A stretch of 64,000 bases of DNA from assembly GCA_932294295.1 (NCBI GenBank), contig OW028576.1, positions 40,869,247-40,933,246 on the forward strand, given 5' to 3'. Made by a program: the position numbers and the translations under genes. This DNA is from Alitta virens (lineage: Eukaryota; Annelida; Polychaeta; Phyllodocida; Nereididae). Shown in pieces: positions 1,825 to 26,560 of the stretch; the first letter of the stretch is position 1; each line of letters opens with the position of its first letter. A model generated the notes under the pieces. It was not told the origin of the DNA. It did no database searches and saw only the letters and a program-made list of their open reading frames with translations.

Positions 1825-2177
1825 GTATAAACTGTTTAACTGTAATATCAAAATATGAATACAGACACAAAAAAATATAGATGGAATTTCATGATTATTC
1901 CTCAAACTTTAATCCTGAAGTTCAACCAATAGTTACTGTTGTATATAACAAGCCAGGTTATCAGAGTAGATCATGATATTCCGTAAATTGTTGGCCTACT
2001 ATAATCAATTGCTATCGCTAAAACTCCTTGCTACTTTGCGTTAAATGGAAATGACATAATTTTCTTTTGATTATAATGTCATTTTTTTAAAGTTAACTAT
2101 GAACTGACAATTGTAATTCTTTTATGTGAAACTGCCTAATATTTCAATGTATAATAGTCTTCTTTATATCCTTCCAG

Positions 2178-3923
2178 GCCAAGTCCTGGGCCCAGGTAAG
2201 TGATATTTAAATGATGACACACTAAAAACCTTTTTCAATTTATTTAGTGTACAAAGTCATATAAGTTATAAACTGTAACAGCTAGTTGCATCAAATATTT
2301 TTAAAACTCCTTGCTATTTTGCGTTAATTACTAAATTTTCTTTCATTATTATAATGAATTTGTTTATTGTAAAGTAAATTATGAATTGACAATCATAATT
2401 ATTTTACTGTGAAACTGATTAATATTTCAATGCATAATAGTCTTCTTTATATCCTTCCAGGCGACTTTCCATTCACGAGTAAGTGATATTTAATTGATGA
2501 CAAACTATAAAACGTTTTCAATTTATTTAGTGTACAAAGTCATATAAGTTATAAACTGTAACAGCTAGTTGCATCAAATATTTTTAAAACTCCTTGCTAT
2601 TTTGCGTTAATTACTAAATTTTCTTTCATTATTATAATGAATTTGTTTATTGTAAAGTAAATTATGAATTGACAATCATAATTATTTTACTGTGAAACTG
2701 ATTAATATTTCAATGCATAATAGTCTTCTTTATATCCTTCCAGGCTACTTTCCATTCTCAAGTAAGTGATATTTAATTGATGACAAACTATAAAACGTTT
2801 TCAATTTATCTAGTGTAAAAAGTCATATAAGTTATCAACTGTAATAGCTAGTTGCATCACAAATTATTGAAACTCCTTGCTTCTTTGCATTAAACGGAAC
2901 TTACTTAATTTTCTTTCATGATTATAATAAACATGTCATCTTAAAGTAAATTATGAATTGACAATCATAATTCTTTTACTGTGAAACTGCCTAATATTTC
3001 AATGTATAATAGTCTTCTTTATATCTTTTCGTGCCCAGGTAAATGATATTTATTCTTTATAAGTGATTTTTAAATGATCCAACACTACTACTAAAAACTT
3101 TTTCAATTTATCCTGTGTACAATGTCATATAAGTTATCAACTGTAATAGCTAGTTGCATCACAAATTTGTTGAAACTCCTTGAATGTTCTTTCATGATTA
3201 TAATAAAAATGTCATCTTAAAGTAAATTATGAATTGACAATCATAATTCTTTTAGTGTGAGACTGCGTAATATTTTTAATGTATAATAGTCTTCTTTATA
3301 TCCTTCCAGGACAAGGCGTGCTGAGTAAGTGATATTTAAATGATGACATACTAAAAACATATTCAATTTATCTAGTGTACAATGTCATATAAGTTATCAA
3401 CTGTAATAGCTAGTTGCATCACAAATTATTGAAACTCCTTGCTATTTTGCGTTAAATGGGAATTACTTAATTTAGTTTCATGATTATAATAAAAAATGGT
3501 TTTTTAAGTAAATTATGAATTGACAATCATAATTCTTTTAGTGTGAAACTGCTTAATATTTTTAATGTATAATAGTCTTCTTTATATCCTTCCAGGACAA
3601 GGCGTGCTGGGTAAGTGATATTTAAATGATCACACACTAAAAACTTTTTCAATTTATCCTGTGTACAATGTCATATAAGTTATCAACTGTAATAGCTAGT
3701 TGCATCACAAATTATTAAAACTCCTTGCTACTATGCGTTAAACAGAAATTACTTCATTTTCTTTCATGATTTTAATAAAAATGTTATTTTTAAGTAAATT
3801 ATGACAATCATATTATCCTTGAATTGGTTGACAATCATAATTTTTTTAGTGTGAAACTACTTAATATGGCATTGTTTAATAGTCTTCTTTATATCCTTCC
3901 AGGCGAGATGGTGCCTCCTCCAG
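2178..3923 (+). CDS. Micro-exon array, unit A (six intact exons)
   Basis: Six micro-exons lie at 2178-2195, 2461-2478, 2744-2761 (18 nt each), 3310-3324, 3596-3610 (15 nt each) and 3903-3923 (21 nt). Each follows TATATCCTTCCAG and is followed by GTAAGTGATATTTA. All lengths are multiples of three. In the frame with one leading base they read PSPGPR, RLSIHE, LLSILK, TRRAE, TRRAG and RDGASSR (last residue completed by the next exon). Frame 0 has a stop in the 3310 exon. A seventh repeat near 3025-3042 has lost its acceptor and exon body. They are inferred to belong to the gene ending in the FIIND-CARD-CARD exon at 27359. The first exon of that gene is not seen and may lie left of the window. Confidence 0.78.
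2377..2400 (+). promoter_or_regulatory. Conserved intronic palindrome of the micro-exon array
   Basis: AATTATGA and TCATAATT flank an 8 nt loop, giving an 8 bp stem about 60 nt before the 2461 acceptor. The same block recurs before most array exons in units A, B and C and before 20513, 21121 and 25189; the first exon of each unit has a degenerate form. As RNA it could form local hairpins, or pair between copies, since every left half complements every right half. Confidence 0.6.
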
Positions 3924-4849
3924 GTAAGTGATATTTAAATGATGACACACTAAAAACCTTTTCAATTTATCCTATGTACAACGTCATGCAGAAGTAACAA
4001 ACTCTAATACCTAGTTGCATCAAAAATATAAAGAATATATGTCAAACTTTTGTTATGAAGGAGCAGATGCCTTACAGATAAAATAAATACAATGAAAATC
4101 AATGTTAGTTGGCATAAGCTTCAAAAAACGTCAAAATATAACTGGAAAGCATTCATCAGATTAAATAACACAAAATTGTAAACAATTTCAAAAGGATAAT
4201 GTTCAACTGTATTTTCCTGCCCTGTCCTAGGAAGTAATTATAAACTGTAGCTCTAAATATTAAAATACACGTAAAGAGACAGACACAAAGAAATATAGCT
4301 GGAATTTAATGATTATTCATCAAACTTCATCATGAAGTTCAATAGCCATATATTAATTTTCTTGCAAAATTATAATAAACACGTCATTTATAAGTAAATT
4401 ATAAATGGTTAATCATACCCTTAAGTGGGATACTTGAAAACAATAGCACTGTATCCTGTAGAGGACATAAATAAATACACTGTCACTTTTAAAATCACGG
4501 AGTAAGTTTGAAATAATAAATGACTACAGATCAAAAAGTTCAATAAATATATAAATATATTTAATTCAGAAAACTTTGATAAAATGCTCACCACATGTAG
4601 GCTGTATAGGTCATAAAGGAAAACTGATTACAAATTTTTATTTTATTTTTGCCTCAATCATATCGCCCAAAAGAAGATATAAGCAATGCTGTGAGAAAAA
4701 TAAAACAGAACCTAACAGTGAATTACTAACATTAAAAGAAAATGCAACAGATTAAAAGTAACAGAAACTATTTGAAGAAAATAAAATCAGTGATGCTTCA
4801 AGTGATCCCTGAACACAGAAAGAATACTGTACCTGAAATCGCATCCATG

Positions 4850-4918
4850 CTTCGACCACTTCCACAAATTTTCTTTTTCTGAATAATGACTTGTACACAA
4901 CTATCAAAGTGGTCGAAG
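4850..4918. repeat. Short inverted repeat in each tandem unit
   Basis: CTTCGACCACTT at 4850-4861 is the exact reverse complement of 4907-4918, with TACTGTAC-like sequence outside both. It may be the ends of a tiny non-autonomous element. Copies occur in units B (near 9704-9772) and C (near 15404-15472). A CCAAT box follows in each unit (near 4957). Confidence 0.55.
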
Positions 4919-5340
4919 TACAGTATCAAAAAACAATTGATTTAACGGCTGTTCAGCCAATCAGACGTGGCCATTCATCAAAAGATGCGCCTTTTGAACA
5001 GCGCGAGGGCATTGCAATCACCTTTTTCGGGCCGCATGTTTTCTTATTGTAGACTTACACCTCTTGATAATAGCAATATTTCCACATCCAAGTTTTAAAC
5101 TCTTAGAAACACATTAAGAAACCGCAACATCACATAAAACCTCACATGTTATCTTACCGCCATATAATTACATTAAGTTCCATCATGTTTTTTTAACCAT
5201 TTGATATTAATGAATTTCTCTACATGATAAATGGACTGAATATAAAATCGTATTCAAAATGATACCAAACAATCAGAATGAATTAGATCTTAGTTTACTG
5301 TATCTTATCCCATGTACACCATTGTGAATTAGACTCACAG

Positions 5341-6991
5341 CCTCAAAAAGGTCACCAAGAAAGACGCTTACCCATACCTCTAATAATGGACATTTTTGAC
5401 CACCTCGAAGGCTCCACTGTATTCTCAACGCTTGATTTTAAATCAAGCTTTCACCAGCTACTGCTCTACACTGAAGACCAAGAGAAGACCGCGTTCATCT
5501 GCCACAGAGGTCTCTTTCACTGGACAAGGCTCCCGATGTTCCTTTGTAACGCATCACAATTGTCTCAAAGGGCAATGGAGGTGGTGTTTAAAGGATTGAT
5601 TGGCAATATTTGTATGCTGTACATTGATGACATAGTCATGTACAGCGCAAATTAAACTGAACATACCCACAATCTGCAGACAATGTTTGATCGTCTCGAC
5701 TGATTCAACTTACGCCTCAATCCCTCCAAGTGTGTGTTTGGCTTGTGGGAAGTTAAGTTGCTGGGTTATGTGGTCAGTAAGGCGGGGCTGAGAAAGGATC
5801 CTGGCAAGGTTGCTGCCATCTTGCGGATGCACACTCCTCAGAACCTTGGCGAAACCCACAGTTTGGGATGACTGGTTACTACAGATCGTACATCTCAGAA
5901 CCAAACTAAATACAATCGTGAATAAAAGAAAAACACTTCAGCGTACAGAATCACAGAAAACGGCTTTTACTTGTTAATTTGCTATTGTAACCTAGTGATC
6001 TATAATCACATAAACGGCACATATGCTTGCTAATTGATATTAAATGAATGCCACAATATTATTTTTGACATTGATTTTTTCGTTTGTTTTACAATGTCTT
6101 TAATGTATAAATATGCTTGTTAATCAATATTAAATTAACGGTCATATCGGTAAACCATAAGATATAGTTAAAATGTCAAGTTTGAGTGGTCGGGCCGCCA
6201 CCATCTGGCATTTGATGCTCTTAAGACAGCCCTGACAAGTGACAGCGTCATGGCTCATTCACCCACCGATCAGCTTTACACGGACGTGTGCGACTACACC
6301 ATTGGAGCTATACTGTGTCAGAGGGATAAAGCAGGAGTGGAATGCCCGATTGTCTAATTGTCAAAGCATCTATCCGATACCCAAAGGCGGTGGGCAACAA
6401 TCGAAAAGAAAGCATATGCTGTCATATACGCCCTCAAGCAATTGGGACCGTATCTTTGGGGTGCCAGCTACAGGACCTTCACAAGCCCCTCACGTCACTG
6501 TTCACAAAAGACATGAACAACACCAAGATCCAACGTTGGGCCATCCTGTTAGCTGAGTACAATTGCAAGGTCAGGGCAGACATGCTTTCCAGGATACGAC
6601 AAGTTGACACCATCACCACCTTTAACACCGGCTATTGGCAACTAGGAGAGCACTTGTCACTCCTGCCTCCTGATGATGCTACCCCAAACATATACAGTCT
6701 CGACTTGCACCTCATTGCACAGCAGCAGCGCCTAATGACAGAGTGGACGGATCATCATAACGAGGACAGCGACTTTGAGGTTATCAACAGGATGCTATAC
6801 TCGACCAAGCGCCTTATCAATATGCGGCCGATTATGCACGACTAGTCATACCTCCAGAGCAACACAGCACTGTAACAACCCATGCACATGAGGATGTTGG
6901 TTACATGTCTGTCATTAAGACCATGCGTAAACTCCAAGAAGCCTTTGCATGGCGCAAAGTGAAGTTTGACATCTCAGCTATCGTTTCTTAG
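5341..6991 (+). mobile_element. Degenerate Ty3/gypsy pol remnant, unit B
   Basis: Second copy of the same fragment, here with its left end. A gypsy-type leader to the reverse transcriptase at 5341-5381 ends in two stops, and the next 89-codon stretch lies in another frame (5386-5655). The YIDD motif is at 5620-5631. RNase H-like sequence lies near 6276-6495 and integrase-start sequence ends near 6991. The fragment starts exactly at the tandem-unit junction, so the insertion was part of the unit before it was duplicated. It is non-functional. Confidence 0.87.
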
Positions 6992-7593
6992 TACCCCACA
7001 CTATCACTATGTGGCATTTAAATTAAGGCTTATGGTATAATTAAAGGTTTGTAATATGTAATAGTATGCTTTTAGTAGTTATTGTCAGGCTACTACACAA
7101 AAACGTCAAAATATAACGGGAAAACATTCATCAGATTAAATGACCATCAAATTGTAAACAATTTCCATGGAATAATGATCAAGTGTTATATTTTTTCCAG
7201 GTTTGAGTCAGGAGATATTATCGAATATTTCTCACCATATGTATAAACTGTTTAACTGTAATATCAAAATATGCATACAGACACAAAAAAATATAGATGG
7301 AATTTCATGATTATTCCTCAAACTTTAATCCTGAAGTTCAACCAATAGTTACTGTTGTATATAACAAGCCAGGTTATCAGAGTAGATCATGATATTCCGT
7401 AAATTGTTGGCCTACTATAATCAATTGCTATCGCTAAAACTCCTTGCTACTTTGCGTTAAATGGAAATGACATAATTTTCTTTTGATTATAATGTCATTT
7501 TTTTAAAGTTAACTATGAACTGACAATTGTAATTCTTTTATGTGAAACTGCCTAATATTTCAATGTATAATAGTCTTCTTTATATCCTTCCAG

Positions 7594-8777
7594 GCCAAGT
7601 CCTGGGCCCAGGTAAGTGATATTTAAATGATGACACACTAAAAACCTTTTTCAATTTATTTAGTGTACAAAGTCATATAAGTTATAAACTGTAACAGCTA
7701 GTTGCATCAAATATTTTTAAAACTCCTTGCTATTTTGCGTTAATTACTAAATTTTCTTTCATTATTATAATGAATTTGTTTATTGTAAAGTAAATTATGA
7801 ATTGACAATCATAATTATTTTACTGTGAAACTGATTAATATTTCAATGCATAATAGTCTTCTTTATATCCTTCCAGGCGACTTTCCATTCACGAGTAAGT
7901 GATATTTAATTGATGACAAACTATAAAACGTTTTCAATTTATTTAGTGTACAAAGTCATATAAGTTATAAACTGTAACAGCTAGTTGCATCAAATATTTT
8001 TAAAACTCCTTGCTATTTTGCGTTAATTACTAAATTTTCTTTCATTATTATAATGAATTTGTTTATTGTAAAGTAAATTATGAATTGACAATCATAATTA
8101 TTTTACTGTGAAACTGATTAATATTTCAATGCATAATAGTCTTCTTTATATCCTTCCAGGCGACTTTCCATTCACGAGTAAGTGATATTTAATTGATGAC
8201 AAACTATAAAACGTTTTCAATTTATTTAGTGTACAATGTCATATAAGTTATCAACTGTAATAGCTAGTTGCATCACAAATTATTGAAACTCCTTGCTATT
8301 TTGCGTTAAATGGGAATTACTTAATTTAGTTTCATGATTATAATAAAAAATGGTTTTTTAAGTAAATTATGAATTGACAATCATAATTCTTTTAGTGTGA
8401 AACTGCTTAATATTTTTAATGTATAATAGTCTTCTTTATATCCTTCCAGGACAAGGCGTGCTGGGTAAGTGATATTTAAATGATCACACACTAAAAACTT
8501 TTTCAATTTATCCTGTGTACAATGTCATATAAGTTATCAACTGTAATAGCTAGTTGCATCACAAATTATTAAAACTCCTTGCTACTATGCGTTAAACAGA
8601 AATTACTTCATTTTCTTTCATGATTTTAATAAAAATGTTATTTTTAAGTAAATTATGACAATCATATTATCCTTGAATTGGTTGACAATCATAATTTTTT
8701 TAGTGTGAAACTACTTAATATGGCATTGTTTAATAGTCTTCTTTATATCCTTCCAGGCGAGATGGTGCCTCCTCCAG
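7594..8777 (+). CDS. Micro-exon array, unit B (five intact exons)
   Basis: Exons at 7594-7611, 7877-7894, 8160-8177 (18 nt), 8450-8464 (15 nt) and 8757-8777 (21 nt), with the same acceptor and donor sequences as unit A. The third exon here is a second copy of the RLSIHE exon, not the LLSILK exon. The intron after it continues directly into sequence that in unit A follows the TRRAE exon. This marks an internal deletion or unequal exchange inside the array. Frame and length rules are as in unit A. Confidence 0.78.
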
Positions 8778-10194
8778 GTAAGTGATATTTAAATGATGAC
8801 ACACTAAAAACCTTTTCAATTTATCCTATGTACAACGTCATGCAGAAGTAACAAACTCTAATACCTAGTTGCATCAAAAATATAAAGAATATATGTCAAA
8901 CTTTTGTTATGAAGGAGCAGATGCCTTACAGATAAAATAAATACAATGAAAATCAATGTTAGTTGGCATAAGCTTCAAAAAACGTCAAAATATAACTGGA
9001 AAGCATTCATCAGATTAAATAACACAAAATTGTAAACAATTTCAAAAGGATAATGTTCAACTGTATTTTCCTGCCCTGTCCTAGGAAGTAATTATAAACT
9101 GTAGCTCTAAATATTAAAATACACGTAAAGAGACAGACACAAAGAAATATAGCTGGAATTTAATGATTATTCATCAAACTTCATCATGAAGTTCAATAGC
9201 CATATATTAATTTTCTTGCAAAATTATAATAAACACGTCATTTATAAGTAAATTATAAATGGTTAATCATACCCTTAAGTGGGATACTTGAAAACAATAG
9301 CACTGTATCCTGTAGAGGACATAAATAAATACACTGTCACTTTTAAAATCACGGAGTAAGTTTGAAATAATAAATGACTACAGATCAAAAAGTTCAATAA
9401 ATATATAAATATATTTAATTCAGAAAACTTTGATAAAATGCTCACCACATGTAGGCTGTATAGGTCATAAAGGAAAACTGATTACAAATTTTTATTTTAT
9501 TTTTGCCTCAATCATATCGCCCAAAAGAAGATATAAGCAATGCTGTGAGAAAAATAAAACAGAACCTAACAGTGAATTACTAACATTAAAAGAAAATGCA
9601 ACAGATTAAAAGTAACAGAAACTATTTGAAGAAAATAAAATCAGTGATGCTTCAAGTGATCCCTGAACACAGAAAGAATACTGTACCTGAAATCGCATCC
9701 ATGCTTCGACCACTTCCACAAATTTTCTTTTTCTGAATAATGACTTGTACACAACTATCAAAGTGGTCGAAGTACAGTATCAAAAAACAATTGATTTAAC
9801 GGCTGTTCAGCCAATCAGACGTGGCCATTCATCAAAAGATGCGCCTTTTGAACAGCGCGAGGGCATTGCAATCACCTTTTTCGGGCCGCATGTTTTCTTA
9901 TTGTAGACTTACACCTCTTGATAATAGCAATATTTCCACATCCAAGTTTTAAACTCTTAGAAACACATTAAGAAACCGCAACATCACATAAAACCTCACA
10001 TGTTATCTTACCGCCATATAATTACATTAAGTTCCATCATGTTTTTTTAACCATTTGATATTAATGAATTTCTCTACATGATAAATGGACTGAATATAAA
10101 ATCGTATTCAAAATGATACCAAACAATCAGAATGAATTAGATCTTAGTTTACTGTATCTTATCCCATGTACACCATTGTGAATTAGACTCACAG

Positions 10195-11845
10195 CCTCAA
10201 AAAGGTCACCAAGAAAGACGCTTACCCATACCTCTAATAATGGACATTTTTGACCACCTCGAAGGCTCCACTGTATTCTCAACGCTTGATTTTAAATCAA
10301 GCTTTCACCAGCTACTGCTCTACACTGAAGACCAAGAGAAGACCGCGTTCATCTGCCACAGAGGTCTCTTTCACTGGACAAGGCTCCCGATGTTCCTTTG
10401 TAACGCATCACAATTGTCTCAAAGGGCAATGGAGGTGGTGTTTAAAGGATTGATTGGCAATATTTGTATGCTGTACATTGATGACATAGTCATGTACAGC
10501 GCAAATTAAACTGAACATACCCACAATCTGCAGACAATGTTTGATCGTCTCGACTGATTCAACTTACGCCTCAATCCCTCCAAGTGTGTGTTTGGCTTGT
10601 GGGAAGTTAAGTTGCTGGGTTATGTGGTCAGTAAGGCGGGGCTGAGAAAGGATCCTGGCAAGGTTGCTGCCATCTTGCGGATGCACACTCCTCAGAACCT
10701 TGGCGAAACCCACAGTTTGGGATGACTGGTTACTACAGATCGTACATCTCAGAACCAAACTAAATACAATCGTGAATAAAAGAAAAACACTTCAGCGTAC
10801 AGAATCACAGAAAACGGCTTTTACTTGTTAATTTGCTATTGTAACCTAGTGATCTATAATCACATAAACGGCACATATGCTTGCTAATTGATATTAAATG
10901 AATGCCACAATATTATTTTTGACATTGATTTTTTCGTTTGTTTTACAATGTCTTTAATGTATAAATATGCTTGTTAATCAATATTAAATTAACGGTCATA
11001 TCGGTAAACCATAAGATATAGTTAAAATGTCAAGTTTGAGTGGTCGGGCCGCCACCATCTGGCATTTGATGCTCTTAAGACAGCCCTGACAAGTGACAGC
11101 GTCATGGCTCATTCACCCACCGATCAGCTTTACACGGACGTGTGCGACTACACCATTGGAGCTATACTGTGTCAGAGGGATAAAGCAGGAGTGGAATGCC
11201 CGATTGTCTAATTGTCAAAGCATCTATCCGATACCCAAAGGCGGTGGGCAACAATCGAAAAGAAAGCATATGCTGTCATATACGCCCTCAAGCAATTGGG
11301 ACCGTATCTTTGGGGTGCCAGCTACAGGACCTTCACAAGCCCCTCACGTCACTGTTCACAAAAGACATGAACAACACCAAGATCCAACGTTGGGCCATCC
11401 TGTTAGCTGAGTACAATTGCAAGGTCAGGGCAGACATGCTTTCCAGGATACGACAAGTTGACACCATCACCACCTTTAACACCGGCTATTGGCAACTAGG
11501 AGAGCACTTGTCACTCCTGCCTCCTGATGATGCTACCCCAAACATATACAGTCTCGACTTGCACCTCATTGCACAGCAGCAGCGCCTAATGACAGAGTGG
11601 ACGGATCATCATAACGAGGACAGCGACTTTGAGGTTATCAACAGGATGCTATACTCGACCAAGCGCCTTATCAATATGCGGCCGATTATGCACGACTAGT
11701 CATACCTCCAGAGCAACACAGCACTGTAACAACCCATGCACATGAGGATGTTGGTTACATGTCTGTCATTAAGACCATGCGTAAACTCCAAGAAGCCTTT
11801 GCATGGCGCAAAGTGAAGTTTGACATCTCAGCTATCGTTTCTTAG
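10195..11845 (+). mobile_element. Degenerate Ty3/gypsy pol remnant, unit C
   Basis: Third copy, offset 4854 bp from unit B and almost identical to it, with the same stops and frameshifts and the same AT-rich interruption between reverse transcriptase and RNase H parts. Shared disabling changes show that decay came before duplication. Confidence 0.87.
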
Positions 11846-12447
11846 TACCCCACACTATCACTATGTGGCATTTAAATTAAGGCTTATGGTATAATTAAAG
11901 GTTTGTAATATGTAATAGTATGCTTTTAGTAGTTATTGTCAGGCTACTACACAAAAACGTCAAAATATAACGGGAAAACATTCATCAGATTAAATGACCA
12001 TCAAATTGTAAACAATTTCCATGGAATAATGATCAAGTGTTATATTTTTTCCAGGTTTGAGTCAGGAGATATTATCGAATATTTCTCACCATATGTATAA
12101 ACTGTTTAACTGTAATATCAAAATATGCATACAGACACAAAAAAATATAGATGGAATTTCATGATTATTCCTCAAACTTTAATCCTGAAGTTCAACCAAT
12201 AGTTACTGTTGTATATAACAAGCCAGGTTATCAGAGTAGATCATGATATTCCGTAAATTGTTGGCCTACTATAATCAATTGCTATCGCTAAAACTCCTTG
12301 CTACTTTGCGTTAAATGGAAATGACATAATTTTCTTTTGATTATAATGTCATTTTTTTAAAGTTAACTATGAACTGACAATTGTAATTCTTTTATGTGAA
12401 ACTGCCTAATATTTCAATGTATAATAGTCTTCTTTATATCCTTCCAG

Positions 12448-14476
12448 GCCAAGTCCTGGGCCCAGGTAAGTGATATTTAAATGATGACACACTAAAAACC
12501 TTTTTCAATTTATTTAGTGTACAAAGTCATATAAGTTATAAACTGTAACAGCTAGTTGCATCAAATATTTTTAAAACTCCTTGCTATTTTGCGTTAATTA
12601 CTAAATTTTCTTTCATTATTATAATGAATTTGTTTATTGTAAAGTAAATTATGAATTGACAATCATAATTATTTTACTGTGAAACTGATTAATATTTCAA
12701 TGCATAATAGTCTTCTTTATATCCTTCCAGGCGACTTTCCATTCACGAGTAAGTGATATTTAATTGATGACAAACTATAAAACGTTTTCAATTTATTTAG
12801 TGTACAAAGTCATATAAGTTATAAACTGTAACAGCTAGTTGCATCAAATATTTTTAAAACTCCTTGCTATTTTGCGTTAATTACTAAATTTTCTTTCATT
12901 ATTATAATGAATTTGTTTATTGTAAAGTAAATTATGAATTGACAATCATAATTATTTTACTGTGAAACTGATTAATATTTCAATGCATAATAGTCTTCTT
13001 TATATCCTTCCAGGCGACTTTCCATTCACGAGTAAGTGATATTTAATTGATGACAAACTATAAAACGTTTTCAATTTATTTAGTGTACAAAGTCATATAA
13101 GTTATAAACTGTAACAGCTAGTTGCATCAAATATTTTTAAAACTCCTTGCTATTTTGCGTTAATTACTAAATTTTCTTTCATTATTATAATGAATTTGTT
13201 TATTGTAAAGTAAATTATGAATTGACAATCATAATTATTTTACTGTGAAACTGATTAATATTTCAATGCATAATAGTCTTCTTTATATCCTTCCAGGCTA
13301 CTTTCCATTCTCAAGTAAGTGATATTTAATTGATGACAAACTATAAAACGTTTTCAATTTATCTAGTGTACAAAGTCATATAAGTTATCAACTGTAATAG
13401 CTAGTTGCATCACAAATTATTGAAACTCCTTGCTTCTTTGCATTAAACGGAACTTACTTAATTTTCTTTCATGATTATAATAAACATGTCATCTTAAAGT
13501 AAATTATGAATTGACAATCATAATTCTTTTACTGTGAAACTGCCTAATATTTCAATGTATAATAGTCTTCTTTATATCTTTTCGTGCCCAGGTAAATGAT
13601 ATTTATTCTTTATAAGTGATTTTTAAATGATCCAACACTACTACTAAAAACTTTTTCAATTTATCCTGTGTACAATGTCATATAAGTTATCAACTGTAAT
13701 AGCTAGTTGCATCACAAATTTGTTGAAACTCCTTGAATGTTCTTTCATGATTATAATAAAAATGTCATCTTAAAGTAAATTATGAATTGACAATCATAAT
13801 TCTTTTAGTGTGAAACTGCGTAATATTTTTAATGTATAATAGTCTTCTTTATATCCTTCCAGGACAAGGCGTGCTGAGTAAGTGATATTTAAATGATGAC
13901 ATACTAAAAACATATTCAATTTATCTAGTGTACAATGTCATATAAGTTATCAACTGTAATAGCTAGTTGCATCACAAATTATTGAAACTCCTTGCTATTT
14001 TGCGTTAAATGGGAATTACTTAATTTAGTTTCATGATTATAATAAAAAATGGTTTTTTAAGTAAATTATGAATTGACAATCATAATTCTTTTAGTGTGAA
14101 ACTGCTTAATATTTTTAATGTATAATAGTCTTCTTTATATCCTTCCAGGACAAGGCGTGCTGGGTAAGTGATATTTAAATGATCACACACTAAAAACTTT
14201 TTCAATTTATCCTGTGTACAATGTCATATAAGTTATCAACTGTAATAGCTAGTTGCATCACAAATTATTAAAACTCCTTGCTACTATGCGTTAAACAGAA
14301 ATTACTTCATTTTCTTTCATGATTTTACTAAAAATGTTATTTTTAAGTAAATTATGACAATCATATTATCCTTGAATTGGTTGACAATCATAATTTTTTT
14401 AGTGTGAAACTACTTAATATGGCATTGTTTAATAGTCTTCTTTATATCCTTCCAGGCGAGATGGTGCCTCCTCCAG
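12448..14476 (+). CDS. Micro-exon array, unit C (seven intact exons)
   Basis: Exons at 12448-12465, 12731-12748, 13014-13031, 13297-13314 (18 nt), 13863-13877, 14149-14163 (15 nt) and 14456-14476 (21 nt). A degenerate repeat lies near 13580-13592. The RLSIHE exon is present twice in a row, so this array is the longest of the three. All splice sites match GTAAGT at the donor and CCTTCCAG at the acceptor, and all exons are symmetric, so any subset could be skipped without changing the frame. Confidence 0.78.
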
Positions 14477-15889
14477 GTAAGTGATATTTAAATGATGACA
14501 CACTAAAAACCTTTTCAATTTATCCTATGTACAACGTCATGCAGAAGTAACAAACTCTAATACCTAGTTGCATCAAAAATATAAAGAATATATGTCAAAC
14601 TTTTGTTATGAAGGAGCAGATGCCTTACAGATAAAATAAATACAATGAAAATCAATGTTAGTTGGCATAAGCTTCAAAAAACGTCAAAATATAACTGGAA
14701 AGCATTCATCAGATTAAATAACACAAAATTGTAAACAATTTCAAAAGGATAATGTTCAACTGTATTTTCCTGCCCTGTCCTAGGAAGTAATTATAAACTG
14801 TAGCTCTAAATATTAAAATACACGTAAAGAGACAGACACAAAGAAATATAGCTGGAATTTAATGATTATTCATCAAACTTCATCATGAAGTTCAATAGCC
14901 ATATATTAATTTTCTTGCAAAATTATAATAAACACGTCATTTATAAGTAAATTATAAATGGTTAATCATACCCTTAAGTGGGATACTTGAAAACAATAGC
15001 ACTGTATCCTGTAGAGGACATAAATAAATACACTGTCACTTTTAAAATCACGGAGTAAGTTTGAAATAATAAATGACTACAGATCAAAAAGTTCAATAAA
15101 TATATAAATATATTTAATTCAGAAAACTTTGATAAAATGCTCACCACATGTAGGCTGTATAGGTCATAAAGGAAAACTGATTACAAATTTTTATTTTATT
15201 TTTGCCTCAATCATATCGCCCAAAAGAAGATATAAGCAATGCTGTGAGAAAAATAAAACAGAACCTAACAGTGAATTACTAACATTAAAAGAAAATGCAA
15301 CAGATTAAAAGTAACAGAAACTATTTGAAGAAAATAAAATCAGTGATGCTTCAAGTGATCCCTGAACACAGAAAGAATACTGTACCTGAAATCGCATCCA
15401 TGCTTCGACCACTTCCACAAATTTTCTTTTTCTGAATAATGACTTGTACACAACTATCAAAGTGGTCGAAGTACAGTATCAAAAAACAATTGATTTAACG
15501 GCTGTTCAGCCAATCAGACATGGCCATTCATCAAAAGATGCGCCTTTTGAACAGCGCGAAGGCATTGCAATCACCTTTTTCGGACCGCATGTTTTCTTAT
15601 TGTAGATTTACACCTCTTGATAATAGCAATATTTCCACATCCAAGTTTTAAACTCTTAGAAACTCATTAAGAAACCGCAACATCACATAAAACCTCACAT
15701 GTTATCTTACCGCCATATAATTACATTAAGTTCCATCATGTTTTTTTAACCATTTGATATTAATGAATTTCTCTACATGATAAATGGACTGAATATAAAA
15801 TCGTATTCAAAATGATACCAAACAATCAGAATGAATTAGACCTTAGTTTACTGTATCTTATCCCATGTACACCATTGTGAATTAGACTC

Positions 15890-18500
15890 AAAATACTTTA
15901 ATTATTGGCTTTAATTAATTATTTTTCCTTCCTAAGACTGGATAAAAATTAAGACATTTGCAAATATATATCATGGAATACAGAGTAGTACATATATAAT
16001 CTTTTGCAGCATTCAAGACAAAATTTCTAAATCTGATAGTCAATCAAATATACACTGTATAAAATACACACTTGGTAAAATGGATGTCAATCCTGTTAAA
16101 TCATCAATTACCTAAATATTAGAATTACAACTAACTTTAAACTTTTTTTTTATCATGTAGTTTAAAGTATGGCCATTATTGGGAAGTCTGTGCAAAAGTA
16201 AAGTATATTAGGCCTTGTAATTTGTAACTATAAAAGTTATGATAATTTTTTGAGCATAGTCTGGCAACATAAGCCATTATAATACTTTATATACACATCT
16301 AGTATCATGTCTGAAGTCTAAATCATCAATATACGTGCACCAGTGATAATGCATACACCGTAGGCATACGATGTGCATCATTGCACAATGTGTTATTCCA
16401 TATCTGATATAACATAAATACCATTAATACATAGTTCTGGCAAAAAATTGAAAACCATCAAGTCTCCTTAATTTGTGATTTGTGACTATAAAACAATTAT
16501 AACATGCTTCAAAGAAACATTGTAGACCTATATTATTATGTATTTCATTTAATGTCTAGCTGGTTTGCAAAATAATGAAATCAAGGCAGTGATGCCTAAA
16601 CTAGCATAATATAAAACTTAACATTCTTCATATGATCATGTTTGGTGCTTATTTTTTGTCAGGAAGTTGAATTTTTACGTATGAATTTCATATAATTCCT
16701 TGCCTAAAAATGTTTTAGTTCAATTTTCTGTGGAGTGAAATAAACTGACCCATACTAGATATGATTAGGGTGTGTTGTCTTCCGTCGCCTCAGTCACACA
16801 CCCCATATGGTCATTAGATGGCCATCAGATAAGGCTTGGGCGATATTGGACAGTATTATAAGATACTCTGTCACTATATGCTATGTTAAATTAAGGCTTA
16901 TAGTATAATTAAAGTTTTGTAATATGTAATAGTATGCTTTTACTAGTTATTGTCAGGCACGGATCCACAGCCCGGTTCAGCACTGATTTTACATTGCCAA
17001 AAATGCCATCAGTCTGAGCAAGGTACAGGTAATTCTCACGGCAATAATGAAATAGCAGATCCTAAGAAAGTGTGAGAACCATTTTTATGAATATTCGTGC
17101 AAATTAGATTTATCATGTGTATATGTATGAATAATATTTACTCATTTAGTTTGAAGTTAAAACTAATTCATAACCATAGCACTATATCCTGAATAGGTTA
17201 TAAATAACACTGTCACTATCAAAATCAAGGGAATCATTTCTTACTTTAAATATGTCCTGCAAAGACTTAACGGATTTCATCCATTAGCCCAGAGATTCAC
17301 TTTCAAAATTAATAACCCTGTATAGGTCATAAATACCAACAGTCCCCCTTTACAATCCAGAGAATTATTTCTGCTTCTTTGGGCTCTGATAGACTTTGAC
17401 AGATTTTTTCCAGTGGCCCAGATATCCTGTAGAGGGTCTCATGACCGTAAATAATGAAAATTGTATAATAAGGGGAAAATCTTTCAATCCTTTATAAATC
17501 AATTTTGAATTGAACCCGGGACCCAGCGGTTAGAAGCCCAGGGCGCTACCTCTGAGCTAGGCCCCGCCCATTTTCTGGAGCAGAACTCTAACACTATTAT
17601 ACTATTATTCTATATGGCCTGGTCATGTTCTTTGGTAGTCACATTGACATATCTCAAAAATGTTTTACAAATTATAAAAAAAAAATGAAACAAATGTATA
17701 TTTTTTTGGTTTCTGGAGCAGAACTCGAACATTAATGCACTGACATGTATAACATATTAGGAGAAAATGTCTCAAATAGTGTAGTTGTTCTGTTTAAGGA
17801 TCTCATGACCATAAATAGTATATAAGGGAAAAAATATAAAGAATTCTTGTTTTTTTAAACCTCCATATTAAAGACATTAAATCTTTGACATTTACTTCAT
17901 GTATTTCTTTCTTAGTCATAGTCATGGAAAATCTTAATAAAATGCTGAAAATTGTGTTATTTTCGACTTTTCCCTTACCTAACGTGCCATACTTTACAAT
18001 GAAAGCCATGAAAAGTTTGTACATCAAACATATTTTTACATGAATAAAACCTTGGCATATATAGAATAATATTTTCACTGGGAAACGAAGATTATTAGTA
18101 AGTTTTTAAAAAAATTAATGAATATGAAAAAAATGTATGAATATTCTTCAAGATCAGACTTATGATGTGTATATATGTTTAATATTTACTTATTTATTTT
18201 TGAAACTGAAATAGAGTCTATCCTTTAGAGGTTATAAATACCACTGTCACATTTTAAGTAAAGGAAATTATTTCTTCCTTTAATACCTGCTATTATTTTC
18301 CCAATTTCTTTCTGTGTCCCAGATGATAACTTCAAATAATTCTGTGTCCTGTAGAAGTCCTAAATAACAATACTGTCACTTTCAAACTCAAGCTAAAAAT
18401 TCTCCTTAATTGGACCCTCTCTTAAAATTTGGCAGATTTCTCCCAGTGGCCCAAAGATTCACTTTCAAATTAATAGCCCTGTAAAATTATAATAAACACG
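15890..18500. other. AT-rich non-coding stretch after the tandem units
   Basis: No exon of the array type is seen here. 16884-16958 repeats the unit sequence near 1606-1676, so the right edge still carries unit-derived material. 17571-18100 recurs with changes at about 21730-22160 and 26632-27100. Short open stretches such as the one on the minus strand at 17803-18078 have no recognisable features. Confidence 0.6.
17507..17568 (-). repeat. tRNA-derived SINE head or tRNA pseudogene
   Basis: On the minus strand an A-box-like TAGCTCAGAGGTAG (17546-17559) and a B-box-like GGTTCAATTC (17507-17516) have tRNA spacing, with TTCTAA where an anticodon loop would sit. There is no matching 3' acceptor strand, so this is not a working tRNA gene. 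Confidence 0.6.
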
Positions 18501-21500
18501 TCATGATAGTTAGTTGCGTCAAAAATATAATGAATATATGTCAAAATTGTATTATTAAGGGGCAGATGCCTTATGGATAAAGAAATATATTCAATTTTAG
18601 CTGACATAAGCTTCACAAAAATGTCAAAATATATAACGGGAAAGCATTAATCAGATTAAATAACTGCCAAATTGTAAAATAATTCCATGGAATAATGTTC
18701 AACTGTTTTATTTTCTCCAGCTCTGACTGGAGTGTTGCAGAACTTACCTCACTGTAAGTATAAACTGTGTAACTCTAAGTATCAAAATACCCATACAGAG
18801 ACAGACACAAATAAATAAAGCTGGAATTTAATGATTATTCATCAACCTTCAATTGTAGGTTGGCCCCGATTTGGCTACCAGTAGGTCAAGCACTGTCACA
18901 TAGGTCTACCGATGGCCAAATCATTTGCTAGAGTTGTTCCAATGTCAGTTCGTCCCACTTTTTGCTAACAGCAGGTAGCCCCACTGTAGCTTGGGCCTAC
19001 CAATGACCAAATGACATGTCAACTCAAAGTCGGCCCAGTGTTAGCCCAAAATTGGGCTGGCCCAGTGTTTGTTGTCCAACAACGGTTTGGCCGCTATCAG
19101 ATATACCCATAGAGAAAATGCCATTAATAACCACCATACAGAGACAGACACAAAGAAATTTTGCTGGAATTTAATGATTATTCATCAACCTTCATCAGTA
19201 AATAACAAACCTGGCAATAAAAGAGGATCATGATATTTCCGTATTTGTTGGCCTAATACAATCAATTACCATTGGTAAAACCCCTTGCTATTTTGCGTTA
19301 AATGGAATTAATTTTCTCCTGTAGGGGTCATAAATAACACTCAATTTTAAAATTAAGGGAAATATTTCTTACTTCAAATGTATCCTGCTAAAATTTACCT
19401 GATAATTTTCAGTGACACAGGGGATGAATCCAAACTGAAACTCCGTTCTTCTATGTAAGTTTTTAAAAAAATGTATGAATATGGAAAGAAATCAATGAAT
19501 GTTCTTCTAGATCAGACTTATGATGTGTATATATGTGTAATATTTACTTATTTATTTTTGAAACTGAAATACAGTCTATCCTTTAGAGGTTATAAATACC
19601 ACTGTCACATTTTAAGTAAAGGAAATTATTTCTTCCTTTAATACCTGCTATTATTTTCCCAATTTCTTTCTGTGTCCCAGATGATAACTTCAAATAATTA
19701 TGTGTCCTGTAGAAGTCCTAAATAACAATACTGTCACTTTCAAACTCAAGCTAAAAATTCTCCTTAATTGGACCCTCTCTTAAAATTTGGCAGATTTCTC
19801 CCAGTGGCCCAAAGATTCACTTTCAAATTAATAGCCCTGTAAAATTATAATAAACACGTCATGATAGTTAGTTGCGTCAAAAATATAATGAATATATGTC
19901 AAAATTGTATTATTAAGGGGAAGATGCCTTACGGATAAAGAAATATATTCAATTTTAGCTGACATAAGCTTCACAAAAATGTCAAAATATATAACGGGAA
20001 AGCATTAATCAGATTAAATAACTGCCAAATTGTAAAAGCCCAGTGTTGGCCTAATGGCTGCCCAGCATTCGCCCAACATTGGGCTGGCCCAGTGTTGGTC
20101 CAACAACGGTTTGGCCGCTATCAGATATTCCCATAGAGAAAATGCCATTAATAACCACCATACAGAGACAGACCTAAAGAAATTTTGCTGGAATTTAATG
20201 ATTATTCATCAACCTTCATCATGAAGTTCAACCAATAGTCATTGTAGTAAATAACAAACCTGGCTATCAAAGAGGATCATGATATTTCCATATTTGTTGG
20301 CCTAATACAATCAATTACCATTGGTAAAACCCCTTGCTATTTTGCGTTAAATGGAATTAATTTTTTTCATGATTATAATAAAAAATGTTATTTTAAGGTA
20401 AATTATGAATTGACAATCATAATTATCCTTGAATAGGTTGACAATCATAATTCTTTTAGTGTGAAACTACTTAATATGGCATTATATAATAGCCTTCTTT
20501 ATATCCTTTTAGGTATGTTCCCCTCTCCAGGTAAGTGATATTTAAATGTTGACACACTAGAGAATTTTTTAATTGATCCTCTGTATAAGTTATAAACTCT
20601 TATGCCTATTTGCAAAAAGAAATATGATGAATATATGTAAAACTTATTATGAAGGAGCAGATGCTTCAGATAAATAAATATATACAATGAACATTAATTT
20701 TAGTTGACATAAGCTTCAAAAAAGTCCAAATATATGGAAAGTACAAATCAGATTAAATATTCACCATACAGAGACAGACACAAAGAAATTTGGCTGGAAT
20801 TTAATGATTATTCATCAACCTTCATCATGAAGTTCAACCAATAGTCATTGTAGTAAATAACAAACCTGGCTATCAAAGAGGATCATGATATTTCCATATT
20901 TGTTGGCCTAATACAATCAATTACCATTGGTAAAACCCCTTGCTATTTTGCGTTAAATGGAATTAATTTTTTTTCATGATTATAATAAAAAAAATTAATT
21001 TTAAGGTAAATTATGAATTGACAATCATAATTATCCTTGAATAGGTTGACAATCATAATTCTTTTAGTGTGAAACTACTTAATATGGCATTATATAATAA
21101 CCTTCTTTATATCCTTTTAGGCCATATGTTTCCTCCTCCAGGTAAGTGATATTTAAATGTTGACACACTAGAAAATTTTTAATTGATCCTCTGTATCTAT
21201 ATCTATAAAATCGTTGCGTCTGTTTGCAATTTAAACGAACAAACACCCCAGAATATTCCATTTTTCCTTCACAGTACCTTCGAGTATTTACTTCACTCTG
21301 TCCTGCCCACCTGAATCCTGTCCTTATCACTTTTTCTAATAGTTTTTGACAACTTTTTCATACTTTTTAAGTCAGCACGTTTGTTTGTTTATATTGCACT
21401 TGACCCAGTTGTACCCCGCATCGGCGCCTCTGTTAATCGTTACGTGTAAAAAAGGAGGGGCTGAATAACTTTGTGATAGAGTATGTGATGTACACAATTA

Positions 21501-24500
21501 CAAAATTGTCGAATAATTCACTTAAAAAAAGTAAAACAATCCAAATATCTTTTTAATTTGTAATTATTACAAATCAGATTAAATATTCACCATGCAGAGA
21601 CAGACACAAAGAAATTTGGCCTAAATTTAATGATTATTCATCAAACTTCATCATGAAGTTCAATAGCCATATATTAACTTTCTTGCAAAATTATAATAAT
21701 CTCGTCATGTCTAAGTAAATTATAAGTCGTGCTTTTTGGTAGTCACATTGACATACCTTGGTCCAAATTATTTGACAAATCATAAAAAAAATTAAAACTT
21801 TATATTTTTTGGTTTCTGGAGCAGAACTGAAACACTAATGCACTGACATGTATAACATATAAGGAGAAAATGTCTCAAATAGTGTAGTTGTTCTGTTTTA
21901 AGGGTTTCGTGACCATAAATAATATAGAAAAAATATAAAGGATTCTTGTTTTTTCAAACCTCCATATAAAAGACCATAAATCTTTGACATTTACTTCATG
22001 TTAATTTTTTTTTAGTCATAATCATGGAAAATCTTAATTAAATGCTGAAAATTGTGTTATTTCCCATCATTCCTTACCTAACGTGCCATACTTTACAATG
22101 AAAGTCATAAAAAGTCAGTACATAAGACATATTTTTACATCAATAAAACCTAAGCATATATATTTTTCATGATAGTTAGTTGCGTCAAAAATATACTGAA
22201 TATATGTCAAAATTGTATTATTAAGGGGCAGATGCCTTATGGATAAAGAAATATATTCAATTTTAGCTGACATAAGCTTCACAAAAATGTCAAAATATAT
22301 AACGGGAAAGCATTAATCAGATTAAATAACTGCCAAATTGTAAAAAAATTCCATGGAATAATGTTCAACTATTTTATTTTCTCCAGCTCTGACCTGAGTT
22401 TTGAAGAACTTACCTCACTGTAAGTATAAACTGTGTAACTCTAAGTATCAAAATACCCATACAGAGACAGACACAAATAAATAAAGCTGGAATTTAATGA
22501 TTATTCATCAACCTTCAATTGTAGGTTGGCCCCGATTTGGCTACCAGTAGGTCAAGCACTGTCACATAGGTCTACCGATGGCCAAATCATTTGCTAGAGT
22601 TGTTCCAATGTCAGTTCGTCCCACTTTTTGCTAACAGCAGGTAGCCCCACTGTAGCTTGGGCCTACCAATGACCAAATGACATGTCAACTAAAAGTCGGC
22701 CCAGTGTTAGCCCAAAATTGGGCTGGCCCAGTGTTTGTTGGTCCAACAACGGTTTGGCCGCTATCAGATATACCCATAGAGAAAATGCCATTAATAACCA
22801 CCATACAGAGACAGACCTAAAGAAATTTTGCTGGAATTTAATGATTATTCATCAACCTTCATCATGAAGTTCAACCAATAGTCATTGTAGTAAATAACAA
22901 ACCTGGCAATAAAAGAGGATCATGATATTTCCGTATTTGTTGGCCTAATACAATCAATTACCATTGGTAAAACCCCTTGCTATTTTGCGTTAAATGGAAT
23001 TAATTTTCTCCTGTAGGGGTCATAAATAACACTCAATTTTAAAATTAAGGGAAATATTTCTTACTTCAAATGTATCCTGCTAAAATTTACCTGATAATTT
23101 TCAGTGACACAGGGGATGAACCCAAACCGAAACGCCGTTATTCTATGTAAGTTTTTAAAAAAATGTATGAATATGGAAAGAAATCAATGAATGTTCTTCT
23201 AGATCAGACTTATGATGTGTATATATGTGTAATATTTACTTATTTATTTTTGAAACTGAAATACAGTCTATCCTTTAGAGGTTATAAATACCACTGTCAC
23301 ATTTTAAGTAAAGGAAATTATTTCTTCCTGTAATACCTGCTATTATTTTCCCAATTTCTTTCTGTGTCCCAGATGATAACTTCAAATAATTATGTGTCCT
23401 GTAGAAGTCCTAAATAACAATACTGTCACTTTCAAACTCAAGCTAAAAATTCTCCTTAATTGGACCCTCTCTTAAAATTTGGCAGATTTCTCCCAGTGGC
23501 CCAAAGATTCACTTTCAAATTAATAGCCCTGTAAAATTATAATAAACACGTCATGATAGTTAGTTGCGTCAAAAATATAATGAATATATGTCAAAATTGT
23601 ATTATTAAGGGGAAGATGCCTTACGGATAAAGAAATATATTCAATTTTAGCTGACATAAGCTTCACAAAAATGTCAAAATATATAACGGGAAAGCATTAA
23701 TCAGATTAAATAACTGCCAAATTGTAAAATAATTCCATGGAATAATGTTCAACTGTTTTATTTTCTCCAGCTCTGACTGGAGTGTTGCAGAACTTACCTC
23801 ACTGTAAGTATAAACTGTGTAACTCTAAGTATCAAAATACCCATACAGAGACAGACACAAATAAATAAAGCTGGAATTTAATGATTATTCATCAACCTTC
23901 AATTGTAGGTTGGCCCCGATTTGGCTACCAGTAGGTCAAGCACTGTCACATAGGTCTACCGATGGCCAAATCATTTGCTAGAGTTGTTCCAATGTCAGTT
24001 CGTCCCACTTTTTGCTAACAGCAGGTAGCCCCACTGTAGCTTGGGCCTACCAATGACCAAATGACATGTCAACTCAAAGTCGGCCCAGTGTTAGCCCAAA
24101 ATTGGGCTGGCCCAGTGTTTGTTGGTCCAACAACGGTTTGGCCGCTATCAGATATACCCATAGAGAAAATGCCATTAATAACCACCATACAGAGACAGAC
24201 CTAAAGAAATTTTGCTGGAATTTAATGATTATTCATCAACCTTCATCAGTAAATAACAAACCTGGCAATAAAAGAGGATCATGATATTTCCGTATTTGTT
24301 GGCCTAAAAGCTTCACAAAAATGTCAAAATATATAACGGGAAAGCATTAATCAGATTAAATAACTGCCAAATTGTAAAAAAATTCCATGGAATAATGTTC
24401 AACTGTTTTATTTTCTCCAGCTCTCACTGGTGTTTTGAAGAACTTACCCCACTGTTAGTATAAACTGTGTAACTCTAAGTATCAAAATACCCATACAGAG

Positions 24501-26560
24501 ACAGACACAAATAAATAAAGCTGGAATTTAATGATTATTCATCAACCTTCAATTGTAGGTTGGCCCCGATTTGGCTACCAGTAGGTCAAGCACTGTCACA
24601 TAGGTCTACCGATGGCCAAATCATTTGCTAGAGTTGTTCCAATGTCAGTTCGTCCCACTTTTTGCTAACAGCAGGTAGCCCCACTGTAGCTTGGGCCTAC
24701 CAATGACCAAATGACATGTCAACTCAAAGTCGGCCCAGTGTTAGCCCAAAATTGGGCTGGCCCAGTGTTTGTTGTCCAAAAACGGTTTGGCCGCTATCAG
24801 ATATACCCATAGAGAAAATGCCATTAATAACCACCATACAGAGACAGACCTAAAGAAATTTTGCTGGAATTTAATGATTATTCATCAACCTTCATCATGA
24901 AGTTCAACCAATAGTCATTGTAGTAAATAACAAACCTGGCAATCAAAGAGGATCATGATATTTCCATATCTGTTGGCCTAATACAATCAATTGCTATTGG
25001 TAAAACCCCTTGCTATTTTGCGTTAAATGGAATTAATTTTTTTCATGATTATAATAAAAAATGTTATTTTAAGGTAAATTATGAATTGACAATCATAATT
25101 ATCCTTGAATAGGTTGACAATCATAATTCTTTTAGTGTGAAACTACTTAATATGGCATTATATAATAACCTTCTTTATATCCTTTTAGGCCATATGTTTC
25201 CTCCTCCAGGTAAGTGATATTTAAATGTTGACACACTAGAAAATTTTTAATTGATCCTCTGTATCTATATCTATAAAATCGTTGCGTCTGTTTGTCCCCG
25301 TTTTCGGCAATTTAAACGAGCAAACACCCCAGAATATTCCATTTTTCCTTCACAGTACCTTCGAGTATTTACTTCACTCTGTCCTGCCCGCCTGAATCCT
25401 GTCCTTATCACTTTTTCTAATAGTTTTTGACAACTTTTTCATACTTTTTAAGTCAGCACGTTTGTTTGTTTATATTGCACTTGACCCAGTTGTACCCCGC
25501 ATCGGCGCCTCTGTTAATCGTTACGTGTAAAATGCTGAAAATTGTGTTATTTCCCATCATTCCTTACCTAACGTGCCATACTTTACAATGAAAGTCATAA
25601 AAAGTCAGTACATAAGACATATTTTTACATCAATAAAACTTAAGCATATATATTTTTCATGATAGTTAGTTGCGTCAAAAATATACTGAATATATGTCAA
25701 AATTGTATTATTAAGGGGCAGATGCCTTATGGATAAAGAAATATATTCAATTTTAGCTGACATAAGCTTCACAAAAATGTCAAAATATATAACGGGAAAG
25801 CATTAATCAGATTAAATAACTGCCAAATTGTAAAAAAATTCCATGGAATAATGTTCAACTGTTTTATTTTCTCCAGCTCTGACTGGAGTTTTGAAGAACT
25901 TCCCTCACTGTTAGTATAAACTGTGTAACTCTAAGTATCAAAATACCCATACAGAGACAGACACAAATAAATAAAGCTGGAATTTAATGATTATTCATCA
26001 ACCTTCAATTGTAGGTTGGCCCCGATTTGGCTACCAGTAGGTCAAGCACTGTCACATAGGTCTATCGATGGCCAAATCATTTGCTAGAGTTGTTCCAATG
26101 TCAGTTCGTCCCACTTTTTGCTAACAGCAGTTAGCCCCACTGTAGCTTGGACCTACCAATGACCACTGACTTGTCAACTCAAAGTCAGCCCAGTGTTGGC
26201 CTAATGGCTGCCCAGCATTCGCCCAACATTGGGCTGGCCCAGTGTTGGTCCAACAACGGTTTGGCCGCTATCAGATATACCCATAGAGAAAATGCCATTA
26301 ATAACCACCATACAGAGACAGACCTAAAGAAATTTTGCTGGAATTTAATGATTATTCATCAACCTTCATCATGAAGTTCAACCAATAGTCATTGTAGTAA
26401 ATAACAAACCTGGCAATCAAAGAGGATCATGATATTTCCATATCTGTTGGCCTAATACAATCAACTGCTATTGTTGAAATTACCTAATTTTCTTTCATGA
26501 TTATAATCAGAACTTTACCTTAAAGTAAATAATGAATTGACAACACACTAAAACAATTTT
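18500..26560. repeat. Shuffled repeat mosaic carrying micro-exons
   Basis: Blocks recur in changing order: a block containing GGTTGGCCCCGATTTGG (near 18854, 22523, 23903, 24553 and 26013), the 33 nt exon block, the 42 nt exon block and the 18/21 nt exon block. An inserted segment at about 21185-21510 recurs at 25265-25530. The mosaic implies repeated local duplication, which also multiplied the exons. Confidence 0.75.
18721..25909 (+). CDS. Downstream micro-exon set (33, 42, 18 and 21 nt exons)
   Basis: Ten further exon candidates lie in a shuffled repeat region. The 33 nt exons are 18721-18753, 22387-22419, 23771-23803, 24421-24453 and 25877-25909 (acceptor TTTTCTCCAG; donor GTAAGTATA, or GTTAGTATA in the last two). 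The 42 nt exons are 19413-19454 and 23105-23146 (acceptor AATTTTCAG, donor GTAAGTTTTT). An 18 nt exon (20513-20530) and two 21 nt exons (21121-21141, 25189-25209) have array-type flanks. In the one-leading-base frame they read, for example, SDLSFEELTSL, SDWSFEELPSL, DTGDEPKPKRRYSM, YVPLSR and PYVSSSR. The other two frames hit stops in at least one copy. Confidence 0.72.

Follow-up and report, generated by a model that had tools for sequence, protein, structure and literature searches.

Putative symmetric micro-exons form a tandem bank upstream of a ZU5-CARD-CARD exon in the annelid Alitta virens

Introduction

Several described systems share parts of their architecture with the locus reported here. 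Dscam1 exons encode pieces of immunoglobulin (Ig) domains, are larger than those considered below and are chosen one at a time, while in PIDD1 and other ZU5 death-fold proteins a ZU5 domain is followed by a death-fold domain. Schistosome micro-exon genes (MEGs), as covered by the available portions of two studies (PMC4350168, PMC4015677), contain many very small symmetric exons that can be joined in alternative ways and have mobile elements enriched nearby. They mostly encode secreted, signal peptide-bearing parasite proteins with up to 75% micro-exon coding sequence, some have a nonsynonymous-to-synonymous substitution ratio (dN/dS) above 1 in the mature part, and in SmVAL6 a micro-exon part is joined to a known domain (same portions of PMC4350168, PMC4015677). 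CARD8 and NLRP1, according to the accessible part of one account (PMC10249858), are protease tripwire sensors that combine a disordered N-terminus under positive selection with a self-cleaving FIIND and a CARD; FIIND-CARD is also described, in similarly partial sources, for human NLRP1 and some fish NLRPs (PMC11508797), and ZU5 as an autopeptidase (PMC8195603). Here, we analyzed a 64,000-nt stretch of the Alitta virens genome (contig C4, 40869247-40933246, hereafter the window; genome 671 Mb, 23 contigs), in which a bank of putative micro-exons stands in front of an exon encoding a ZU5-like domain and two CARDs.

Within the limits of these partial sources, the locus resembles schistosome MEGs in its small symmetric exons (26 of 26 strictly defined segments and three 42-nt ones are multiples of three), fast change and nearby mobile elements, all known here from genomic sequence, and resembles SmVAL6 in placing a micro-exon part on a domain protein. 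Unlike in MEGs, its micro-exons precede a ZU5-CARD-CARD exon and form three tandem cassette families, two of them more variable than their introns; with all 29 joined, micro-exons would supply 669 of 2520 coding nt (at most 27%), short of a majority. The predicted N-terminus of the window gene, variable, of low complexity and probably under positive selection, resembles that of CARD8 and NLRP1, as do its ZU5-like domain, in which the S of an HFS site is conserved, and its C-terminal CARD. The window gene differs from both in its two CARDs, a hydrophobic stretch after HFS and the lack of a UPA or FIIND profile match, and from CARD8, whose N-terminus the source does not describe as a micro-exon bank, in an N-terminus split over about 29 putative micro-exons. 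PIDD1 has the same order of ZU5 and death-fold domain, whereas the window gene has CARD twice instead of a death domain, plus a putative micro-exon N-terminus. Tandem duplicated exons that would give protein variants, and a possible immune role, recall Dscam1; unlike there, the exons measure 15-42 nt, any combination keeps the frame and a one-per-transcript choice is not needed. An earlier reading of this DNA (the original prediction) had considered a tandem micro-exon bank of this size 5′ of a death-fold gene not known to be described. No micro-exon bank on a CARD protein appeared in titles or abstract beginnings among the open-literature matches listed in our search. Beyond that prediction, we found exons that are more variable than their flanks, ankyrin repeats at the same place in a paralog and a candidate start exon 3.5 kb left of the window.

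Results

A bank of short segments with lengths divisible by three

We defined strict segments as [CT]AG with at least 16 of 20 pyrimidines, followed by 6-74 nt and then GTAAGT or GTTAGT. The plus strand of window positions 1-27358 contained 26 such segments, all 26 with lengths in multiples of three (15, 18, 21 or 33 nt). None occurred on the minus strand of the same region, on either strand of 27359-64000 (36.6 kb) or over the 100 kb that precede the window. Chance splice-like motifs were ruled out by comparison with 200 dinucleotide shuffles, which averaged 0.155 strict segments and never exceeded 2. Adding two 42-nt segments whose acceptors are weaker (11/20 pyrimidines; 19413 and 23105) raises the total to 28, and a third, live 42-nt cassette left of the window (L004:7712-7753, that is, window -2288..-2247) brings the bank to about 29. 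The original prediction of at least 28 micro-exon-like segments, every one a multiple of three, is upheld by this count. Its description of strong polypyrimidine acceptors applies to the 26 strict segments but not to the two 42-nt ones, and its 28 exons are not independent: because a block of about 5 kb has been tripled at 99.8-99.9% identity, the window segments comprise only 14 distinct sequences, or 15 with the exon at -2288. Since the segments form three cassette families, the multiple-of-three rule comes down to about five independent lengths (15, 18, 21, 33 and 42 nt), for which simple arithmetic gives a chance of ~0.004 that all are multiples of three.

Profile searches that included the flanks sorted the cassettes into family A (15, 18 and 21 nt; 21 live and two dead cassettes), family B (33 nt; five live, four of them distinct, plus relics) and family C (42 nt; two in the window and the one at L004, plus relics). 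The window members are the following:

2178..2195, plus strand, micro-exon A, 18 nt
2461..2478, plus strand, micro-exon A, 18 nt
2744..2761, plus strand, micro-exon A, 18 nt
3310..3324, plus strand, micro-exon A, 15 nt
3596..3610, plus strand, micro-exon A, 15 nt
3903..3923, plus strand, micro-exon A, 21 nt
7594..7611, plus strand, micro-exon A, 18 nt
7877..7894, plus strand, micro-exon A, 18 nt
8160..8177, plus strand, micro-exon A, 18 nt
8450..8464, plus strand, micro-exon A, 15 nt
8757..8777, plus strand, micro-exon A, 21 nt
12448..12465, plus strand, micro-exon A, 18 nt
12731..12748, plus strand, micro-exon A, 18 nt
13014..13031, plus strand, micro-exon A, 18 nt
13297..13314, plus strand, micro-exon A, 18 nt
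13863..13877, plus strand, micro-exon A, 15 nt
14149..14163, plus strand, micro-exon A, 15 nt
14456..14476, plus strand, micro-exon A, 21 nt
18721..18753, plus strand, micro-exon B, 33 nt
19413..19454, plus strand, micro-exon C, 42 nt, weaker acceptor
20513..20530, plus strand, micro-exon A, 18 nt
21121..21141, plus strand, micro-exon A, 21 nt
22387..22419, plus strand, micro-exon B, 33 nt
23105..23146, plus strand, micro-exon C, 42 nt, weaker acceptor
23771..23803, plus strand, micro-exon B, 33 nt
24421..24453, plus strand, micro-exon B, 33 nt, donor GTTAGT
25189..25209, plus strand, micro-exon A, 21 nt
25877..25909, plus strand, micro-exon B, 33 nt, donor GTTAGT

Domain content of the terminal exon

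The bank is followed by a large exon with these features:

27359..29174, plus strand, terminal exon: phase-2 acceptor, 604 codons and TAA; ZU5-like, CARD, CARD
27375..27620, plus strand, ZU5-like domain (Pfam E 0.0012, 19.5 bits, under the 21-bit cut-off)
27744..27752, plus strand, H-F-S tripeptide, residues 129-131
27765..27821, plus strand, hydrophobic stretch, a possible membrane segment or core helix
28227..28466, plus strand, first CARD
28821..29060, plus strand, second CARD

The exon end is inferred from the stop codon and AATAAA motifs at 29325, 29335 and 29503. Pfam CARD matched in two stretches (E 2.9e-28), and CARD matches among solved structures were to CARD11, CARD9 and APAF1. When the ZU5 model was applied to four family members, one passed the cut-off (L027, 30.2 bits), two remained below it and one gave no match. 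No match to the FIIND structure was found by sequence among solved structures. A profile search of solved structures returned a ZO-1 chain as its best result (E 1.5), which we did not count as a match, and NCBIfam gave a chance-level match only. We take HFS to be the motif at which known ZU5/FIIND proteins self-cleave; all eight family members that were aligned carry its S, while the H varies, with SFS, QFS or QIS in the others. The hydrophobic stretch follows HFS and is partly kept in the family, so a membrane-bound form is possible.

A shared open phase and a candidate start exon

The acceptor of the terminal exon is in phase 2, in which one leading base completes a codon. All 15 distinct exons are open in this phase, compared with 13 in phase 1 and seven in phase 0, and none of the 196 phase-2 junction pairs among the 14 window exons creates a stop. 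The sequence thus bears out the predicted symmetric segments, multiplied by repeats with conserved flanks 5′ of a death-fold exon, all of them open in its entry phase. Codon usage, scored against nearby and family frames, favored phase 2 for family B (7.5, versus 1.7 in phase 1) and family C (4.6 versus -0.7).

Among Kozak-type ATG frames between -12000 and 27358, a single one ends at a phase-2 donor (ATG at -3542, MGNLLRCTGFN plus 2 nt, donor GTAAGA); the other ten have phase-1 ends inside A cassettes. It defines the following feature:

L004:6427-6492 (window -3573..-3508), candidate start exon, 3.5 kb left of the window; ATG at L004:6458, coding part L004:6458-6492

Joined to the 29 micro-exons and the terminal exon, this candidate gives a frame that is open through 2520 nt to a single stop. 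The peptide from this candidate start presumably has a lipid-anchored rather than a secreted look.

Exon bodies diverge while splice flanks are kept

Eight representative A cassettes are 38% identical in their exons versus 94-96% in the 20 nt directly flanking each side, with deeper intron stretches at 54-90% and one gapped stretch at 16%. As flanks are kept and exon bodies have diverged, splice signals appear to be preserved while the exon changes. Family B (five copies, four distinct) varies at 8 of 33 exon columns versus 15 of 389 in the flanks (~6-fold; Fisher P 1e-4) and the window C pair differs at 4 of 42 exon sites versus 3 of 774 flank sites (~25-fold; Fisher P 2e-4), where sites and copies are not fully independent. 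Sorted by index modulo three, the 20 variable exon columns among close copies fall 0:10:10 (P 3e-4), with 0:7:5 (P 0.008) for B and C alone and 0:3:5 (P 0.04) for A alone; these counts omit the exons at 2178, 20513 and -2288, which a control with diverged members adds. Because no variable column lies at index 0, all 20 changes alter an amino acid when read in phase 2 (expected silent share 0.256, P 0.003), including 12 of 12 for B and C alone (P 0.04). These patterns make it very likely that the segments are coding micro-exons, a view slightly weakened by the control with diverged members described below.

A simpler product of the same exons would be a long, repetitive Ser/Arg/Pro-rich linker, with all micro-exons constitutive and cassette number drifting by unequal exchange, involving neither isoform choice nor sensing. 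The GTAAGT or GTTAGT donors and strong acceptors of 26 of the 28 window copies are consistent with constitutive use, as are disorder-type residues (62% in the joined region versus 48% in the terminal exon) and the short, uniform introns of the 15-21-nt clusters (265-292 nt, twice 548), which suit constitutive intron definition. A neutral linker, however, would change at the intron rate, and the excess exon change in B and C, all of it amino-acid-altering in phase 2, argues against this explanation, which we regard as unlikely.

Recent triplication and mobile elements in the bank

Much of the segment number is recent and stems from triplication of the block, the copies of which are:

1..5337 (begins at window -78), plus strand, tripled block copy 1, with retroelement fragments and class A cassettes
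5338..10191, plus strand, tripled block copy 2
10192..15890, plus strand, tripled block copy 3

Pairs of copies mismatch at 6/4853, 11/5415 and 11/4854 aligned bases. Identity this high could also arise if the triplication were in part an assembly artefact and the true cassette count were lower. The copies nevertheless differ in their live exons (six, five and seven) and at scattered bases, and an artefact would alter the count only, leaving 14 distinct exons; we judge it very improbable. Both dead A cassettes lie within the tripled region:

2945..3153, plus strand, dead class A cassette; its acceptor-side (2945-3029) and donor-side (3060-3153) flanks match, but no exon with intact sites lies between them
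13498-13706, copy of the dead class A cassette at 2945..3153

The bank also contains reverse-transcriptase fragments, and its cassettes may have spread as a mobile repeat; Rfam gave no match in the window. Together with the dead cassettes, the very recent triplication and the frequent mobile-element-like frames in the 100 kb upstream, the reverse-transcriptase fragments would fit a decaying or unexpressed array, made of a former multi-exon region and mobile-element debris, whose splice-like motifs are kept by recent duplication only. Such decay would leave unexpected the stop-free state of 15 exons in phase 2 and the period-three change, and it is at odds with the higher identity of the 20 nt at A splice sites than of deeper intron stretches. 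We consider it improbable.

Upstream of the bank, four near-identical copies of one mobile-element-like frame (MATRSSPSVWLVGRPVK...) lie at window -73440, -53837, -37479 and -7621 (L004-L013). Elsewhere in the window, a ~573-bp tandem unit is present in about three copies at 52885-54608 (97-99% identity), and a degenerate CTGA/GACTGACTGAATAACC simple repeat at 38559-38980, with a minus-strand open frame of 129 codons, is probably no gene.

A paralog carries ankyrin repeats where the window gene has putative micro-exons

The nearest paralog of the terminal exon (C4:49022488-49024062) is 58% identical over residues 5-419 and 66% over 479-578. Ahead of the same ZU5-CARD-CARD exon, it has an exon of ankyrin repeats (open frame of 936 codons, Ank_2 E 6e-36):

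L014:6339-9146, minus strand, long ankyrin exon of the C4 paralog, with very similar repeats

A phase-2 donor and a 225-base intron connect the ankyrin and ZU5 exons, both of them in frame, and this intron phase backs phase-2 entry into the terminal exon at 27359. Its presence suggests that N-terminal sensors are exchanged within this family. A tblastn search spanning -100 kb to +64 kb revealed no hidden ankyrin exons belonging to the window gene, and the 93,887 bases 5′ of the C4 paralog contained no strict segments. Strict segments were likewise absent from a total of 32,000 bases upstream of 16 family loci, covering 1.5 kb per locus and a further 4 kb for two of them; as the nearest micro-exon in the window stands 1449 nt from the terminal exon, a span of 1.5 kb tests the point only weakly.

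With 73 of 147 candidates scored, the terminal exon had at least 21 genome matches, at least 14 of them on contig C13. This contig holds a cluster of ZU5-family exons at ~0.57-3.24 Mb and 35.2-35.4 Mb (L027-L040), where several open frames terminate shortly past the conserved region and encode no CARD in that frame. What looked like a signal peptide at L031 was interpreted as the pyrimidine tract of an intron.

Observations in conflict with a single phase-2 gene

Several results weigh against one gene read in phase 2 from the candidate start exon to the CARDs. Codon usage of family A scored +1.8 in phase 1 and -17.8 in phase 2 (~20 log units toward phase 1), a difference that lies beneath the 1% point (-2.2) obtained for length-matched true-phase controls, and all 15 exons together scored 7.75 in phase 1 versus 0.86 in phase 2. 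The A score is inflated, because its members copy about four lineages (by eye) and TCC codons weigh heavily; even allowing for this, its conflict with a simple single-phase story stands. Inclusion of the diverged exons at 2178, 20513 and -2288 changed the period-three counts to 9:24:18 (P 0.01), weaker than 0:10:10 and, if the phase were 1, resembling a protected second codon position, and two of three close pairs within A lacked an excess of exon over flank change. The start exon is a candidate only, with mobile elements upstream of it and frequent mobile-element-like frames in the 100 kb upstream. As to the domains, a Pfam search reporting matches at E up to 10 gave neither FIIND nor UPA (HMMER filters drop most matches above 0.1), and a single-sequence AlphaFold model of the ZU5 region was unusable (mean predicted local distance difference test, pLDDT, 35.5). 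Of the FIIND-CARD-CARD exon originally proposed at 27359, the two CARDs therefore remain, whereas FIIND is too specific a name for a domain that we term ZU5-like at 19.5 bits.

The codon data raise the alternative of two layers, with A read in phase 1 (Gly/Pro-rich, often with a junction Gly) and B and C in phase 2, A being used either in a different transcript or by way of a second AG located 5 nt into the terminal exon. Codon usage divides the families in this manner, and the candidate exon at -3573 is open in phase 1. Yet the A cassettes at 20513, 21121 and 25189 are interspersed with B and C, homologous copies inflate the codon score and the second AG (AAAG) is a poor acceptor that is absent from the paralog; no phase-1 terminal exon turned up, though no dedicated search was made. 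A two-layer arrangement thus appears distinctly unlikely.

Discussion

We favor, with a probability of about 0.48, a single gene in which the start exon, the micro-exon bank and the terminal exon form a ZU5-CARD-CARD sensor with a variable N-terminus. This model builds on segments, phase, variability, domains and a paralog intron read directly from the DNA. A short first coding exon (MGNLLRCTGFN plus 2 nt) would be followed by about 29 phase-2 micro-exons and then by the ZU5-like/CARD/CARD terminal exon, and the shared phase and symmetry suggest that the micro-exons are probably spliced onto the exon at 27359. As every micro-exon is symmetric, any subset could be joined with the frame kept. 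They would encode a variable N-terminal region where the paralog carries ankyrin repeats. Unequal exchange would multiply the cassettes and diversifying selection would act on the B and C exon bodies while splice signals stay fixed, such that cassette gain and loss and exon change alter the N-terminus and leave the signaling end untouched.

In addition to splicing and the start exon, we infer self-cleavage and a sensor role. The order of parts is the same as in CARD8, an analogy that underlies the sensor reading; whether the bank serves as a variable sensor region seems to us evenly balanced. Most likely, it would serve a CARD-signaling sensor as a bait or binding region that can be rewritten rapidly. 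As in CARD8, the N-terminus might be cut or lost ahead of the self-cleaved ZU5 domain, freeing the CARD part, although a protease tripwire specifically is doubtful on this analogy. A combinatorial and quickly changing protease bait encoded in the germline, in which splicing selects 5- to 14-residue peptides N-terminal to a self-cleaving ZU5 domain and a cut by a pathogen protease in any one of them frees the CARD-CARD end, is unlikely. If that bait reading were true, the animal would possess an innate sensor whose specificity comes from micro-exon choice and cassette turnover, possibly with copy-number polymorphism between individuals.

The analysis also suggests that micro-exons may be findable from sequence alone through their phase, a period-three pattern of change and greater divergence in exons than in introns. 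Should the splicing prove real, this annelid would assemble the sensing end of a CARD-signaling protein from tiny exons whose bank changes rapidly, where a sister gene uses ankyrin repeats.

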